NCBI GenBank assembly: GCA_903862885.1
Contig: CAIOZU010000053.1
Span: forward strand, 62,001-126,000
Length of the DNA stretch: 64,000 nucleotides
Direction of reading: 5' to 3'
From: an uncultured Pseudomonadota bacterium
GTDB lineage: Bacteria; Pseudomonadota; Gammaproteobacteria; Steroidobacterales; Steroidobacteraceae
Program-made: the position numbers and the translations under genes
Notes under the pieces: generated by a model
Told to the model about the DNA's origin: nothing
Seen by the model: only the letters and a program-made list of their open reading frames with translations
Databases searched by the model: none
In this document: positions 6,624 through 26,313 of the stretch, piece by piece
Position numbering within the stretch: position 1 is the first letter of the stretch
Layout: every line of letters starts with the position of its first letter

Positions 6624-8903
6624 TCAGGTCAGTAGCGCAGGCTCTTGGGCACTGCGCGTTTCCAGACTCAAACCTTGACCATCCGCTGACAGCTTGACGC
6701 GCACTGTACCGCCTTGGGTGAGTTTGCCAAAAAGCAGCTCCTCGGCCAGCGGACGCTTAATCTTCTCTTGGACCAAGCGTGCCATTGGTCGGGCACCCAT
6801 CTTTGGGTCATAGCCTTCGCGTGCGATCCAACGTCTGGCGGCGTCATCGATAGACAGTTGCACGCCCTTTTCTTCCAGCTGCGCCTCGACCTCCATCAGC
6901 ACCTTATCGACCACCCGCTCGATGGTGCCTGTGGTGAGCGCACCAAACTGCACAATCGCATCCAAGCGATTGCGAAACTCCGGTGCGAACACGCGCTTAA
7001 TGGCCTCGGTACCATCACTCTCCGTCTCTGACTGAGTAAAGCCGATCACATTGCGCGCCATTTCACTGGCACCCGCGTTAGTCGTCATCACAATGATCAC
7101 GTGCCTAAAGTCCGCTTTACGGCCGTTATTGTCAGTCAGGGTGCCGTGATCCATCACTTGCAACAGCAGGTTAAAGACATCCGGATGGGCCTTTTCAATT
7201 TCATCTAACAACAACACGGCGTGAGGATGCTTGGTAATCGCTTCTGTCAGAAGACCGCCTTGATCAAAACCCACATAACCGGGCGGCGCGCCGATCAGGC
7301 GCGACACGGTGTGCCGCTCCATGTACTCGGACATATCAAAACGAATTAACTCGACCCCTAAGGACAGCGCGAGTTGGCGCGTGACCTCGGTCTTGCCGAC
7401 GCCCGTGGGTCCGGCGAACAAGAAAGAACCCACTGGTTTCCTCGGATCACCCAGGCCCGATCGCGCCATCTTGATGGAAGCGGAGAGCATCTCAATCGCC
7501 GGATCTTGCCCGAAGATCACCAACTTTAAGTTGCGCTCTAGATTCTTCAGCACTTCCTTGTCCGAGGTCGATACCTGCTTAGGCGGTATCCGGGCAATAC
7601 GCGCCACCACGGCCTCCATGTGTTGTACGGTCACGTGCGTAGCGCGCGTCGCCGCGGGCTGCAACCGCAGATTGGCGCCCGCCTCATCCACCACATCAAT
7701 CGCTTTATCAGGTAAAAAGCGATCATTGATGTAACGTGCCGCGAGCTCCGCCGCGGTGGTCAGAGCCGCCTCATCATAGGTGACCCCATGGTGCTCCTCG
7801 AACTGCGACTTCAGTCCTTTTAAGATTTCGATGGTCTCAGGGACTGAAGGCTCGAGCACATCGATTTTCTGGAAGCGGCGGGCGAGCGCGCGGTCTTTTT
7901 CGAATATCCCGCGGTACTCGTGGTAGGTGGTTGACCCGATGCAGCGCAGATCGCCATTGGACAACACCGGCTTAATCAAATTAGACGCATCCATCACGCC
8001 GCCAGAGGCCGCGCCCGCGCCAATCACCGTGTGAATCTCGTCTATAAATAGCACGGCACCCGGGATTTTTTTGATTTCTGTGAGGACGCCTTTCAAGCGT
8101 TTCTCAAAATCACCGCGGTACTTAGTGCCCGCAATCAGCGATCCCATATCCAGCGAGTAGATGGTGCACTGAGCTAAGACCTCGGGGACTTTCTGCTCAA
8201 CGATTAAGCGCGCCAGCCCTTCAGCGATCGCGGTCTTACCCACACCTGCCTCGCCGACATATAGCGGGTTATTTTTGCGTCGCCGACAAAGGATTTCGAT
8301 GGTACGTTCTACCTCCAACTGCCGACCAATCAGTGGATCAATGCGTCCCTCGGCGGCCTGCCGATTCAAATTGACGCAGTACTTATCCAGGGCACCCGCC
8401 TGCGCCTCTGCATCGGCGCCCGCGCCTGACTCGGCCTGCGCGGTCATGTCTTTCTCCGCACCCTCTTCCGCAGACTTCGACAAGCCATGCGAAATGAAAT
8501 TAACGACATCGAGACGTGCGACATCCTGCGCGCCCAGCAAATAGGCTGCATGCGACTGTTTCTCGCTGAAAATAGCCACGAGTACGTTACCTACCGCGAC
8601 CTCTTTCTTACCACTCGACTGCACGCTGAACACCGCCCGCTGCAGTACGCGCTGAAAGCCTAAGGTGGGCTGTACCTCGCGCTCATCCTCCCCGCCCAAG
8701 CGAGGGGTGGTATCGGAAATGAAATGCTGCAAATCGGCTTTCAGCTTTGCCACATCCGCGCCGCAGGCCTTCAAGATGTCGCGTATGCGCGCCGTGTCTA
8801 AAATCGCCAACAACAGATGCTCGACGGTCATGTACTCATGCCGCGCGCTGCGTGCCGATTGAAAGGCGTTGTTAAGACACAGTTCTAGTTCACTCGATAA
8901 CAC
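6624..8903 (-). CDS. clpA: ATP-dependent Clp protease ATP-binding subunit ClpA
   Basis: ClpA is the AAA+ unfoldase that feeds substrates to ClpP. The 759-residue protein has the N domain that docks ClpS, then two AAA modules with Walker A boxes GEAGVGKT (about residue 216) and GPTGVGKT (about residue 496). A degenerate IGF-type loop that docks ClpP (ARNVIGFTQ) is visible in the second module. The start is GTG at 8903, preceded by GAGG at a spacing of eight. An acidic, Ala-rich linker of roughly 25 residues follows the N domain. It lies 24 bases downstream of clpS and is presumably co-transcribed. Confidence 0.97.
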   Translation of the reverse strand: MLSSELELCLNNAFQSARSARHEYMTVEHLLLAILDTARIRDILKACGADVAKLKADLQHFISDTTPRLGGEDEREVQPTLGFQRVLQRAVFSVQSSGKKEVAVGNVLVAIFSEKQSHAAYLLGAQDVARLDVVNFISHGLSKSAEEGAEKDMTAQAESGAGADAEAQAGALDKYCVNLNRQAAEGRIDPLIGRQLEVERTIEILCRRRKNNPLYVGEAGVGKTAIAEGLARLIVEQKVPEVLAQCTIYSLDMGSLIAGTKYRGDFEKRLKGVLTEIKKIPGAVLFIDEIHTVIGAGAASGGVMDASNLIKPVLSNGDLRCIGSTTYHEYRGIFEKDRALARRFQKIDVLEPSVPETIEILKGLKSQFEEHHGVTYDEAALTTAAELAARYINDRFLPDKAIDVVDEAGANLRLQPAATRATHVTVQHMEAVVARIARIPPKQVSTSDKEVLKNLERNLKLVIFGQDPAIEMLSASIKMARSGLGDPRKPVGSFLFAGPTGVGKTEVTRQLALSLGVELIRFDMSEYMERHTVSRLIGAPPGYVGFDQGGLLTEAITKHPHAVLLLDEIEKAHPDVFNLLLQVMDHGTLTDNNGRKADFRHVIIVMTTNAGASEMARNVIGFTQSETESDGTEAIKRVFAPEFRNRLDAIVQFGALTTGTIERVVDKVLMEVEAQLEEKGVQLSIDDAARRWIAREGYDPKMGARPMARLVQEKIKRPLAEELLFGKLTQGGTVRVKLSADGQGLSLETRSAQEPALLT

Positions 8904-8927
8904 ATCGGTATCCTCTTGAATGGATCG

Positions 8928-9266
8928 CTAGTCGGCTTCTTCAACGGTGCACATCAGTGGGTGCTGGTGCTGGCGCGCGTAGGCCATGACTTGAGCAACC
9001 TTGGTTTCTGCAATCTCATACGTGAACACGCCACACACGCCCTTACCGCGGGTATGAATCTCTAGCATCACTCGGGTGGCTTTGACTCGATCCATCACAA
9101 AGATGGCCTCTAAGACCTCCACCACAAACTCCATCGGCGTGTAATCATCGTTCAGCAAAATAACCTGATACAGAGGCGGCCGCTTCAGCTGCGGCGGCGC
9201 CTCCTCGACCAGCAGGCCCTGGCCATCCCCCGGGCGCCCCGTTTGCTCGTCATCGTTGGACTTCAT
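8928..9266 (-). CDS. clpS: ATP-dependent Clp protease adaptor ClpS
   Basis: ClpS binds N-terminal Leu, Phe, Tyr or Trp and hands the protein to ClpA. The 112-residue product has a flexible, acidic N-terminal tail and the conserved core [16 protein letters not shown], where Asp and Met line the N-degron pocket. The helix with H ([23 protein letters not shown]) is also present. A well-formed promoter ends only eight bases before the ATG, so the message may be leaderless (see separate entry). The gene is followed by clpA on the same strand. Confidence 0.96.
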
Positions 9267-9274
9267 GGGAGTAG

Positions 9275-9303
9275 TTTATAGGGACGCCGGGTCGACTGTT
9301 CAA
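9275..9303 (-). promoter_or_regulatory. Candidate sigma-70 promoter of clpS, almost no leader
   Basis: On the minus strand TTGAAC (9303-9298) and TATAAA (9280-9275) are 17 bases apart. The usual start point, six to nine bases after the -10 box, falls between 9269 and 9266, i.e. at or within about three bases of the clpS ATG. The eight bases before the ATG contain no Shine-Dalgarno motif. Both facts point to a leaderless or nearly leaderless transcript. Confidence 0.55.
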
Positions 9304-9472
9304 GGGCTCGGGGGCTAAACTTGGTCTTTATTTTTTAATGACTTAGAGCAAGGCACGCGGACTTGTCGCCACCACCGGCGACGCCGTATGATTAGCGGAT
9401 GTATAGCCGTGTCATTCAAGGGCGATGGCGAGTCGCTGGCCGTCGGCTCGGCCGCTGGAATCGTGCGTGGCG

Positions 9473-10351
9473 ATGACCCTCACCGACCCGCTGGTGCTTT
9501 GGCGCGCCGGCCTGCCTGGCCTGGTGCGGCGTCTGCCGGCCGTTCTGACCGCTTTATTAGCGATCGGGCTCGCATGGCAATTAGCCACCCTACTGTGGCA
9601 ACTGCTGCCCGCGAGTCGCTCAGCCACCGCCCCCGCGGCGGTCAACGTACCGGCCACCGAGTCGCTGCAGCCCGTATTGGATGGCCATCTGTTTGGAAAC
9701 CCGTCAGGCGCTGCCAGCGGCGAAAGCGCCCCTCAGTCGCAAGTGCCCCTGGTGGTGGCCGGCACCTTAGCCGTTAAAGACCCCAAGGCCGGCCTGGCCA
9801 TCATCGGCGAGTCAGCGGTCGCCGCTCGACTCTACGCCACCGGTGGCAACCTACCCGGGGGCGTTAAATTGTTCGAGGTCTATCCGGATCGTGTGGTGAT
9901 TGAGCGCAACGGTGCCCTCGAGAGTTTGTATCTCCCCCGCTCGCACCTCGCCGACTCAGCCAGCAAACCGGCCCCCATGAGCGCAGCCGTCGCCCGTGTC
10001 GCTGAACAAACGACTGCCGTGTTGGGCGAAATCCTTAGACCGATGCCCACCTACGCCAATGGTCAGCTCAAGGGCTTTCGTTTATTCGCAGGACGCGATC
10101 GCGCGCGCTTCGCTGAGCTCGGATTGCAACCGGGCGATCTGGTCACCCAAGTCAATGGAGTGCCCTTAGGCGATGCGCAGCATGGGATGGAGGTCCTTCG
10201 CACCCTCACCAGTGGCGGACCCGCCACGGTCACCGTGGAACGCGAAGGCGCCACCCAACAACTGACCATCGACGCCAGCCAAGTGGCTGCCATCACCGGT
10301 GCCCCCGCAGCACCCACACCCACCCACGCCGGCGTGATCAGCCCACCGTGA
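9473..10351 (+). CDS. gspC: Type II secretion system protein GspC
   Basis: GspC is the inner-membrane clamp protein that links the inner platform to the secretin. After a short cytoplasmic N terminus there is one membrane helix (VLTALLAIGLAWQLATLLWQL). The periplasmic HR domain follows (VPLVVAGTLAVKDPKAGLAIIGE), then a C-terminal PDZ domain (GFRLFAGRDRARFAELGLQPGDLV and VNGVPLGD). I chose ATG at 9473 because the predicted membrane helix then lies about 20 residues from the start; the open frame extends to 9425. It heads gspCDEF. No clear promoter is visible in the 206 bases between it and divergent clpS. Confidence 0.88.
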   Translation: MTLTDPLVLWRAGLPGLVRRLPAVLTALLAIGLAWQLATLLWQLLPASRSATAPAAVNVPATESLQPVLDGHLFGNPSGAASGESAPQSQVPLVVAGTLAVKDPKAGLAIIGESAVAARLYATGGNLPGGVKLFEVYPDRVVIERNGALESLYLPRSHLADSASKPAPMSAAVARVAEQTTAVLGEILRPMPTYANGQLKGFRLFAGRDRARFAELGLQPGDLVTQVNGVPLGDAQHGMEVLRTLTSGGPATVTVEREGATQQLTIDASQVAAITGAPAAPTPTHAGVISPP

Positions 10352-25690: not shown

Positions 25691-26212
25691 TCAGCGCTTT
25701 AACAAATCACCCAAACCCGCAAAGGGTTTGGTCACTCCCGAGTTCGACACCATCCTCAGCGGCTCTACCACTGGCATCGTGCGTCGTCCCGTGCAATCTT
25801 GCGGCGTTGGATGCATCGGCACTAAGGGCAGTGCCAACAGCAGTTCGTCTTCCACGAACTCCAACAACTCCAATCGTCCACCTGGTGCGGTTACCGCATC
25901 ATACTCATCGGGCACTCGACCCGCCTCGGCATCGCGCCCCACAAAGGCGACTCGCACCGGCGACTCCACGGTCGCTTCAAATTCCTGCAAGCACCGCTGG
26001 CACACCAACCAGGCCTTGGCTCTCACCGCCCCTTCCAACGCCGGGTAATTACCAGCGACATGGAAGCGAAAATGCGCCGCCGCTTGACCTTCCGGGCGCG
26101 CCAAACTGCTGCGCACCCGCTCGAATCCATCGATCGGGAACTCGCGTTCAAGCTGGGTACGTTGGGCAGCGAGCTGCCCCACATCCAGCGGGTCTTGCAT
26201 GAGACTCGCCAT
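25691..26212 (-). CDS. yceD: DUF177/YceD family 23S rRNA accumulation protein
   Basis: YceD family proteins are needed for normal 23S rRNA accumulation and are almost always encoded directly before rpmF. The segment [22 protein letters not shown] carries the conserved Cys-x2-Cys. The acidic EYDAV and [21 protein letters not shown] are also typical. The start is ATG 26212 or ATG 26200: a strong promoter predicts transcription from about 26216, which leaves only four bases before the first and sixteen before the second. The frame stays open to 26257, upstream of the promoter, so that longer start is unlikely. Confidence 0.9.
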
Positions 26213-26222
26213 AGGGCCGCGT

Positions 26223-26251
26223 ATGATAGTGACCGATCGCCCTTGTGTCAA
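26223..26251 (-). promoter_or_regulatory. Strong sigma-70 promoter of yceD-rpmF-plsX-fabH
   Basis: On the minus strand a perfect TTGACA (26251-26246) and TATCAT (26228-26223) are separated by exactly 17 bases. The predicted start is near 26216, just before the yceD start codon. It overlaps the upstream region of the divergent maf gene. Confidence 0.75.
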
Positions 26252-26313
26252 AGTCAAATCATCTGCAACATCTTGATTTTCAAGCTCTGATGCCCTGCCA
26301 CCTTGGATCTTTC

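Follow-up and report, generated by a model that had tools for sequence, protein, structure and literature searches.

The window analysed here, a 64,000-nt stretch of DNA from an uncultured gammaproteobacterium of the Steroidobacteraceae, contains a clpS-clpA gene pair on the minus strand and, divergent to it, gspC. The clpS product carries the domain required of an N-degron adaptor (PF02617). The features of the locus are as follows:

6624-8903, minus strand: clpA, GTG start, directly 3' of clpS (named from domain content and place)
8911-8916, minus strand: AGAGGA, Shine-Dalgarno-like sequence of clpA, 7 nt ahead of its GTG (read from the letters)
8928-9266, minus strand: clpS, 112 aa, ATG start at 9264-9266 (PF02617, E 2.7e-36, residues 28-107)
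9267-9274, minus strand: CTACTCCC, the 8 nt linking the -10 to the start codon (read from the letters)
9275-9283, minus strand: -10 region of the putative clpS promoter, CCC at 9281-9283 and TATAAA at 9275-9280 (read from the letters)
9276-9278, minus strand: in-frame TAA within the -10 (read from the letters)
9301-9304, minus strand: -35 core CTTG, with TTGAAC at 9298-9303 (read from the letters)
9363-9392, plus strand: TTGTCG-18-TATGAT, likely divergent promoter of the type II secretion genes (sigma70 scan)
9425-10351, plus strand: gspC, divergent to clpS (PF11356)

On the minus strand, the elements follow one another in the order CTTG (9304-9301), AACAGTCGACCCGGCGT, CCC (9283-9281), TATAAA (9280-9275), CTACTCCC and the ATG (9266-9264), and between gspC and clpS the strand reads CTTGAACAGTCGACCCGGCGTCCCTATAAACTACTCCC-ATG. 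A first-pass annotation of this DNA had described TTGAAC and TATAAA, separated by 17 bases and ending 8 bases before the clpS ATG, and these coordinates and distances were confirmed. Its description of the two as a 'clear' -35/-10 pair was slightly overstated for sigma70: the pair is present, with a spacer of 17, and TTGAAC agrees with TTGACA at 4/6 and TATAAA with TATAAT at 5/6 positions, the T being absent at the sixth -10 position. The sigma70 scan of the window did not list the pair because it requires T at that position, and its silence is not taken as absence. By eye, the likely divergent promoter (9363-9392, plus strand) and those of relatives (L009, L023, L053, L055, L081 and L082) have similar CTTG and CGTATnAT elements, a CTTG-led divergent promoter facing clpS in the window and in these relatives.

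In the window species, the ATG at 9266 is the sole ATG, GTG or TTG start from the in-frame TAA (9278-9276) to residue 28. As the TAA lies inside the -10, a longer ClpS N terminus is excluded. No Shine-Dalgarno sequence was found in the window species, in agreement with the claim that no ribosome-binding sequence occupies the gap. Among 58 window genes, at least four letters matching a Shine-Dalgarno were found in 22 (control 27%) and at least five in 10 (control 5%); Shine-Dalgarno use in window genes is therefore present but weak, and a cruder survey gave 15/46 (control 26%). A search of the draft genome of the window did not recover the 16S 3' end, and the anti-Shine-Dalgarno was thus not readable there.

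ClpS was searched for in 118 genomes, including that of the window, and was present in 109; the upstream DNA was read for 110 clpS loci, the second clpS copy of G069 (L110) being left out of the conservation counts. Each upstream region was scored for matches, out of 13, to CTTG-N-CCCTATAWA, with a threshold of at least 12. Within the window's family, 61 of 66 clpS genes reached the threshold and 48 scored 13, compared with 7/43 at or above 12 outside the family. As a chance control, the 109 upstream stretches were each resampled 20 times by a Markov procedure, and a score of 12 was reached in 2 of the resulting 2180 stretches and 13 never. Among relatives with named genomes, 58 of 80 loci were examined and seven scored 12 or 13, at least two of these in family genomes. 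The spacer between CTTG and CCC was 17 in 59 and 18 in two of the 61 family promoters. When the 59 spacer-17 promoters were aligned, CTTG, the second (middle) C of CCC and TATA were invariant and the other positions of CCCTATAAA were 78-93% conserved (genus-weighted), an invariance that is partly by choice since the loci were selected for at least 12/13 matches. The 60 nt upstream of the -35 in the same 59 promoters showed no second conserved element and no conserved columns (mean 0.12 bit). In the pair G000/G004, the -35 and -10 letters are kept while the spacer and upstream bases differ.

The motif is nearly exclusive to clpS in the window's family. With a spacing of 16-17, the exact motif occurred 48 times in 46 of 70 family genomes, compared with seven matches for the reversed pattern. 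Of the 48, 43 share their strand with a clpS match and precede it by 9-203 nt; four of the remaining five are on other contigs, and the fifth comes from a genome that yielded no clpS. A broader search covered 217 family genomes, 193 of which have a clpS match, and required an ATG 3-33 nt downstream of the motif; 107 genomes yielded a total of 109 sites, against 2 in the reversed control. Of these sites, 93 are confirmed to precede clpS by no more than 200 nt in the same orientation, and the other 16 are in genomes for which no clpS position was available, one of these genomes (G605) having two sites. In the genome of the window, CTTG-N15-18-CCCNATNNA gave 14 matches (control, 5), one of which is clpS. 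Another, L123, precedes a Lon-like ORF with a 64-nt leader, and no convincing gene start was found at the others, L122 being outside that check. TATAAA placed 5-9 nt before any ATG occurred 51 times in the same genome and 35 times as the reversed pattern, and the -10/ATG part by itself is therefore weak there. A general wave of leaderless genes was not demonstrated in this genome: of the 51 TATAAA-ATG loci, 26 were checked and only four open an ORF longer than 100 aa (L138, L151, L153 and L154, with L153 ruvB-like by reading). Elsewhere in the window, TTGACA-17-TATCAT (26212-26250, minus strand) ends 10 nt before the ATG of a YceD/DUF177-like ORF (25691-26257, minus strand), a near-leaderless candidate that lies upstream of a plsX-like ORF and has a second ATG 12 nt further on (names by reading).

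Among the 61 promoter-bearing family species, 37, representing 13 of 23 genera, have their first in-frame ATG or GTG at a distance of 6-11 nt from the -10, and the other 24 are without this short spacing. In none of the 61 does this first codon fall at 12-24 nt, the next values being 25-30, 34 and at least 46 nt. TTG was not counted as a start in this survey; in-frame TTG codons occur at 12 nt (L048) and 15 nt (L007), and L090 has only a TTG as start candidate. Leaders of mostly 25-34 nt, longer in some members, are seen in genera g4, g9, g17, g18, g20, g24 and g25 (measured from a TTG in g25), and those of g14 and g21 are longer. Three g7 genomes have an ATG at 3 nt and an in-frame ATG at 10 nt, and in G584, a genome not counted among the 61, an in-frame ATG follows the -10 at 12 nt, its genus relatives starting at a GTG near 30 nt. 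Beyond the family, G073 (another family) also has its start 6-11 nt after the -10, and in G081 (a third family) the likely start is an ATG at 8 nt, preceded by an in-frame ATG at 2 nt. In a wider scan, the first ATG in any frame was 6-11 nt away at 66 of 93 confirmed clpS sites; at three of them it opens a mini-ORF instead of clpS. At the short-spacing loci of the family, the letters between the -10 and the ATG vary while the length remains short. The start codon is AUG in the window species and GTG in 4 of 38 short-spacing loci (three in genus g16, one in g22).

A conserved Shine-Dalgarno in close relatives had been named as an observation that would speak against a leaderless message, and none was conserved among the 14 same-genus genomes with clpS. 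In eleven of these the start follows the -10 by 6-8 nt, and the remaining three (G002, G008 and G012) have leaders of 53-61 nt with no GGAG, GAGG, AGGA or AAGG at -20 to -4. Two of the 11 show AGGA merely as the final A of TATAAA followed by GGA, and in G014, also among the 11, only 2 nt separate a GGAG from the ATG, a distance too short for a Shine-Dalgarno by the usual rule. Across the 38 short-spacing loci, AGGA occurs within -20 to -4 in four, each time made of the last A of TATAAA and GGA, while the GGAG of L013 and L014 ends 2 nt before the ATG, outside that interval. The three leadered species of the window's genus (loci L024, L041 and L037) keep the promoter; G+C-rich self-complementary runs are visible by eye in the leaders of L024 and L041. 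The close spacing over 13 genera and the lack of a conserved Shine-Dalgarno in the genus support the original proposal of a leaderless or nearly leaderless clpS message, which is well supported as a prediction and conserved in the family. The arrangement is concentrated in this one family: in a class-wide sample, the exact leaderless form was found in 3/369 genomes and at clpS in one, that of the window, whereas L327 precedes a Lon-like ORF and L329 is without a long ORF at its ATG.

The usual sigma70 rule gives a leader of about 0-2 nt for the window species. In the E. coli sigma32 promoter dnaKp1, our count on the sequence given in PMC10216364 places the transcription start 12 nt beyond the final C of CCCC. 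With this geometry, the leader is predicted to be 3 nt long in the window species, and gaps of 5-11 nt would leave 0-6 nt. The clpS transcript is thus predicted to start near the end of CTACTCCC or at the A of the ATG, with a leader of 0-3 nt. Leaders of up to 6 nt without a Shine-Dalgarno count as leaderless in the definition of PMC3293720.

Some of the leadered relatives may have kept a start codon at the short distance. At 5 of 28 leadered loci, in three genera, an ATG or GTG 5-11 nt after the -10 opens a mini-ORF that terminates on a stop overlapping the start codon of clpS. The average was 1.1 when leaders were shuffled (P 0.003), and at genus level 3/15 compares with 0.5 (P 0.014). This excess is a lead only, because the test was designed after the first cases had been seen. 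G588 is a further case outside the 28-locus set, and mini-ORFs of 7 to 25 codons with a stop overlapping the clpS start codon are found at L012, L017, L051, L066, L072 and L334. Leaderless initiation is thought to be favoured under stress. A broader scheme can be imagined in which a dedicated, almost clpS-private stress promoter has the start codon locked into its transcript-start region, yielding a leaderless N-degron adaptor, and in which leadered lineages sometimes keep this start as a mini-ORF that feeds clpS by reinitiation; we regard the scheme as speculative and rather unlikely in this full form.

As to the sigma factor, the first-pass annotation was right about the pair itself, which appears more sigma32-like (heat-shock type) than sigma70-like. 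The sigma32-like traits are CTTG, CCC ahead of the -10 and A at the final -10 position. In the 59 selected family promoters, this last position is A in 88%, C in 12% and T in none (genus-weighted), with A in the window species; the T that marks a sigma70 -10 was not found there. Compared with the CCCCAT type of sigma32 -10, CCC is kept and T stands in place of the fourth C, CCCTATAAA. The -35 reads CTTGAA in the window species and G004, while the family consensus is CTTGTnTTG, without the AA of the sigma32 CTTGAA. RpoH itself (TIGR02392 above the curated cut-off) is encoded in the genome of the window, and 29 of the 30 genomes searched have it; the only other TIGR02392 match in the window's genome is an RpoD-like 628 aa frame. 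Upstream of clpB, TTGAW-N13-17-CCCCA was found in 20 of 30 loci, including all seven fetched from the window's genus. Given these clpB elements and the CTTGTnTTG of the family, the sigma32 reading of clpS is not certain, and we only lean towards RpoH, or RpoH and RpoD both, reading the clpS promoter. Salmonella clpS and clpA, at which RpoH was not seen to bind (PMC11548764), also speak against sigma32. Upstream regions of groES (L235-L262) were fetched for 30 loci, and 22 of the 23 that were checked contain GAGTGCTAA, which we take to be half of a CIRCE-like (HrcA) repeat.

We hold with good confidence that the pair is the main clpS-clpA promoter, that transcription would begin either with the A of the ATG or some 3 nt earlier and that ClpS would be translated leaderless, the promoter probably being read by RpoH, alone or together with RpoD. 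The divergent orientation of the upstream gene, gspC, was counted in favour of this reading. A competing explanation that we rate below the RpoH reading, while giving it appreciable weight, keeps the same start and has a housekeeping RpoD (sigma70) promoter with a weak -35, leading to constitutive leaderless expression with no tie to heat shock. TTGAAC-17-TATAAA matches 9/12 sigma70 positions with a spacer of 17, and the RpoD-like 628 aa frame is encoded; against this, T is absent at the last -10 position in 59 promoters (in whose selection a T would have lowered the score by one), CTTG and CCC are retained, and the g10 member L096, which is without the CTTG motif, has TATAAT and AAGGAG instead. 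We consider it unlikely that the main clpS transcript has a more distant start and needs no Shine-Dalgarno for its translation, with the conserved pair as a minor or regulatory site. A candidate for such a start exists (ATGACA-16-AATCAT, 9/12 match, 9415-9388, minus strand), but it shares bases with the -10 of the divergent gsp promoter, and the changes seen in relatives suit, by eye, the gsp strand; the 60 nt upstream of the -35 are without conserved columns and the short kept distance between -10 and ATG would be left unexplained. A chance resemblance of the CTTG..TATAAA pair, for which the 51 against 35 TATAAA-ATG matches can be cited, is contradicted by 61/66 family clpS genes against 2/2180 resampled stretches and by 109 sites against 2 in the reversed control, and we give it virtually no credence.

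In the model suggested by the combined results, the CTTG/TATAAA element most likely serves as the main clpS-clpA promoter, with RpoH (sigma32), alone or alongside RpoD, as its most likely sigma factor. In the window species, the first base of the clpS message would be the A of the ATG or one lying about 3 nt earlier, and ClpS would be made on the ribosome by leaderless, 5'-AUG-dependent initiation, clpA using its own Shine-Dalgarno. With an RpoH-read promoter, we propose that the supply of ClpS would rise on proteotoxic stress, which may be the advantage of the arrangement. Leaderless genes of gammaproteobacteria are known mostly as scattered single cases. The window's family consists mostly of uncultured gammaproteobacteria, and the arrangement appears to be kept in many of its genera though leaderless messages are rare in the class. 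A family-wide conserved leaderless case in a proteolysis adaptor would provide a natural set of variants, in which the same gene stands behind one promoter either at short spacing or with a leader, and such a set allows the cost or benefit of leaderless initiation to be tested. In addition, clpS may be a heat-shock gene in this family, unlike in Salmonella, where RpoH binding was not detected at clpS or clpA (PMC11548764). A literature search aimed at leaderless clpS in gammaproteobacteria found no report, supplementary lists not being covered.

In E. coli (NC_000913), clpS is likewise followed by clpA; the divergent neighbour there is cspD rather than gspC, and by eye the 200 nt upstream of clpS contain no CTTG-N17-CCCTATAWA. 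The clpS promoter shares with E. coli dnaKp1 (CTTG-N16-CCCC-ATTTA; PMC10216364) the CTTG, the C-run before the -10, a near-identical spacing and the A at the last -10 position. It differs from dnaKp1 and sigma32 promoters in the family -35, which is CTTGTnTTG and not CTTGAA, in the -10 TATAAA, and in being a motif nearly private to clpS. Among enterobacteria, the documented cases are few: 16 fully leaderless messages and 17 with leaders of 1-6 nt in Salmonella (PMC3293720), and 18 leaderless mRNAs in E. coli and 10 in Klebsiella (PMC3415461); leaderless translation in E. coli has been tied to stress via YchF and IF3 (PMC8138138). The predicted clpS message resembles these in having at most 6 nt ahead of its start codon and no Shine-Dalgarno. 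The enterobacterial cases were established by start-site mapping, whereas that of clpS is a prediction from sequence that holds across 13 genera of one family.
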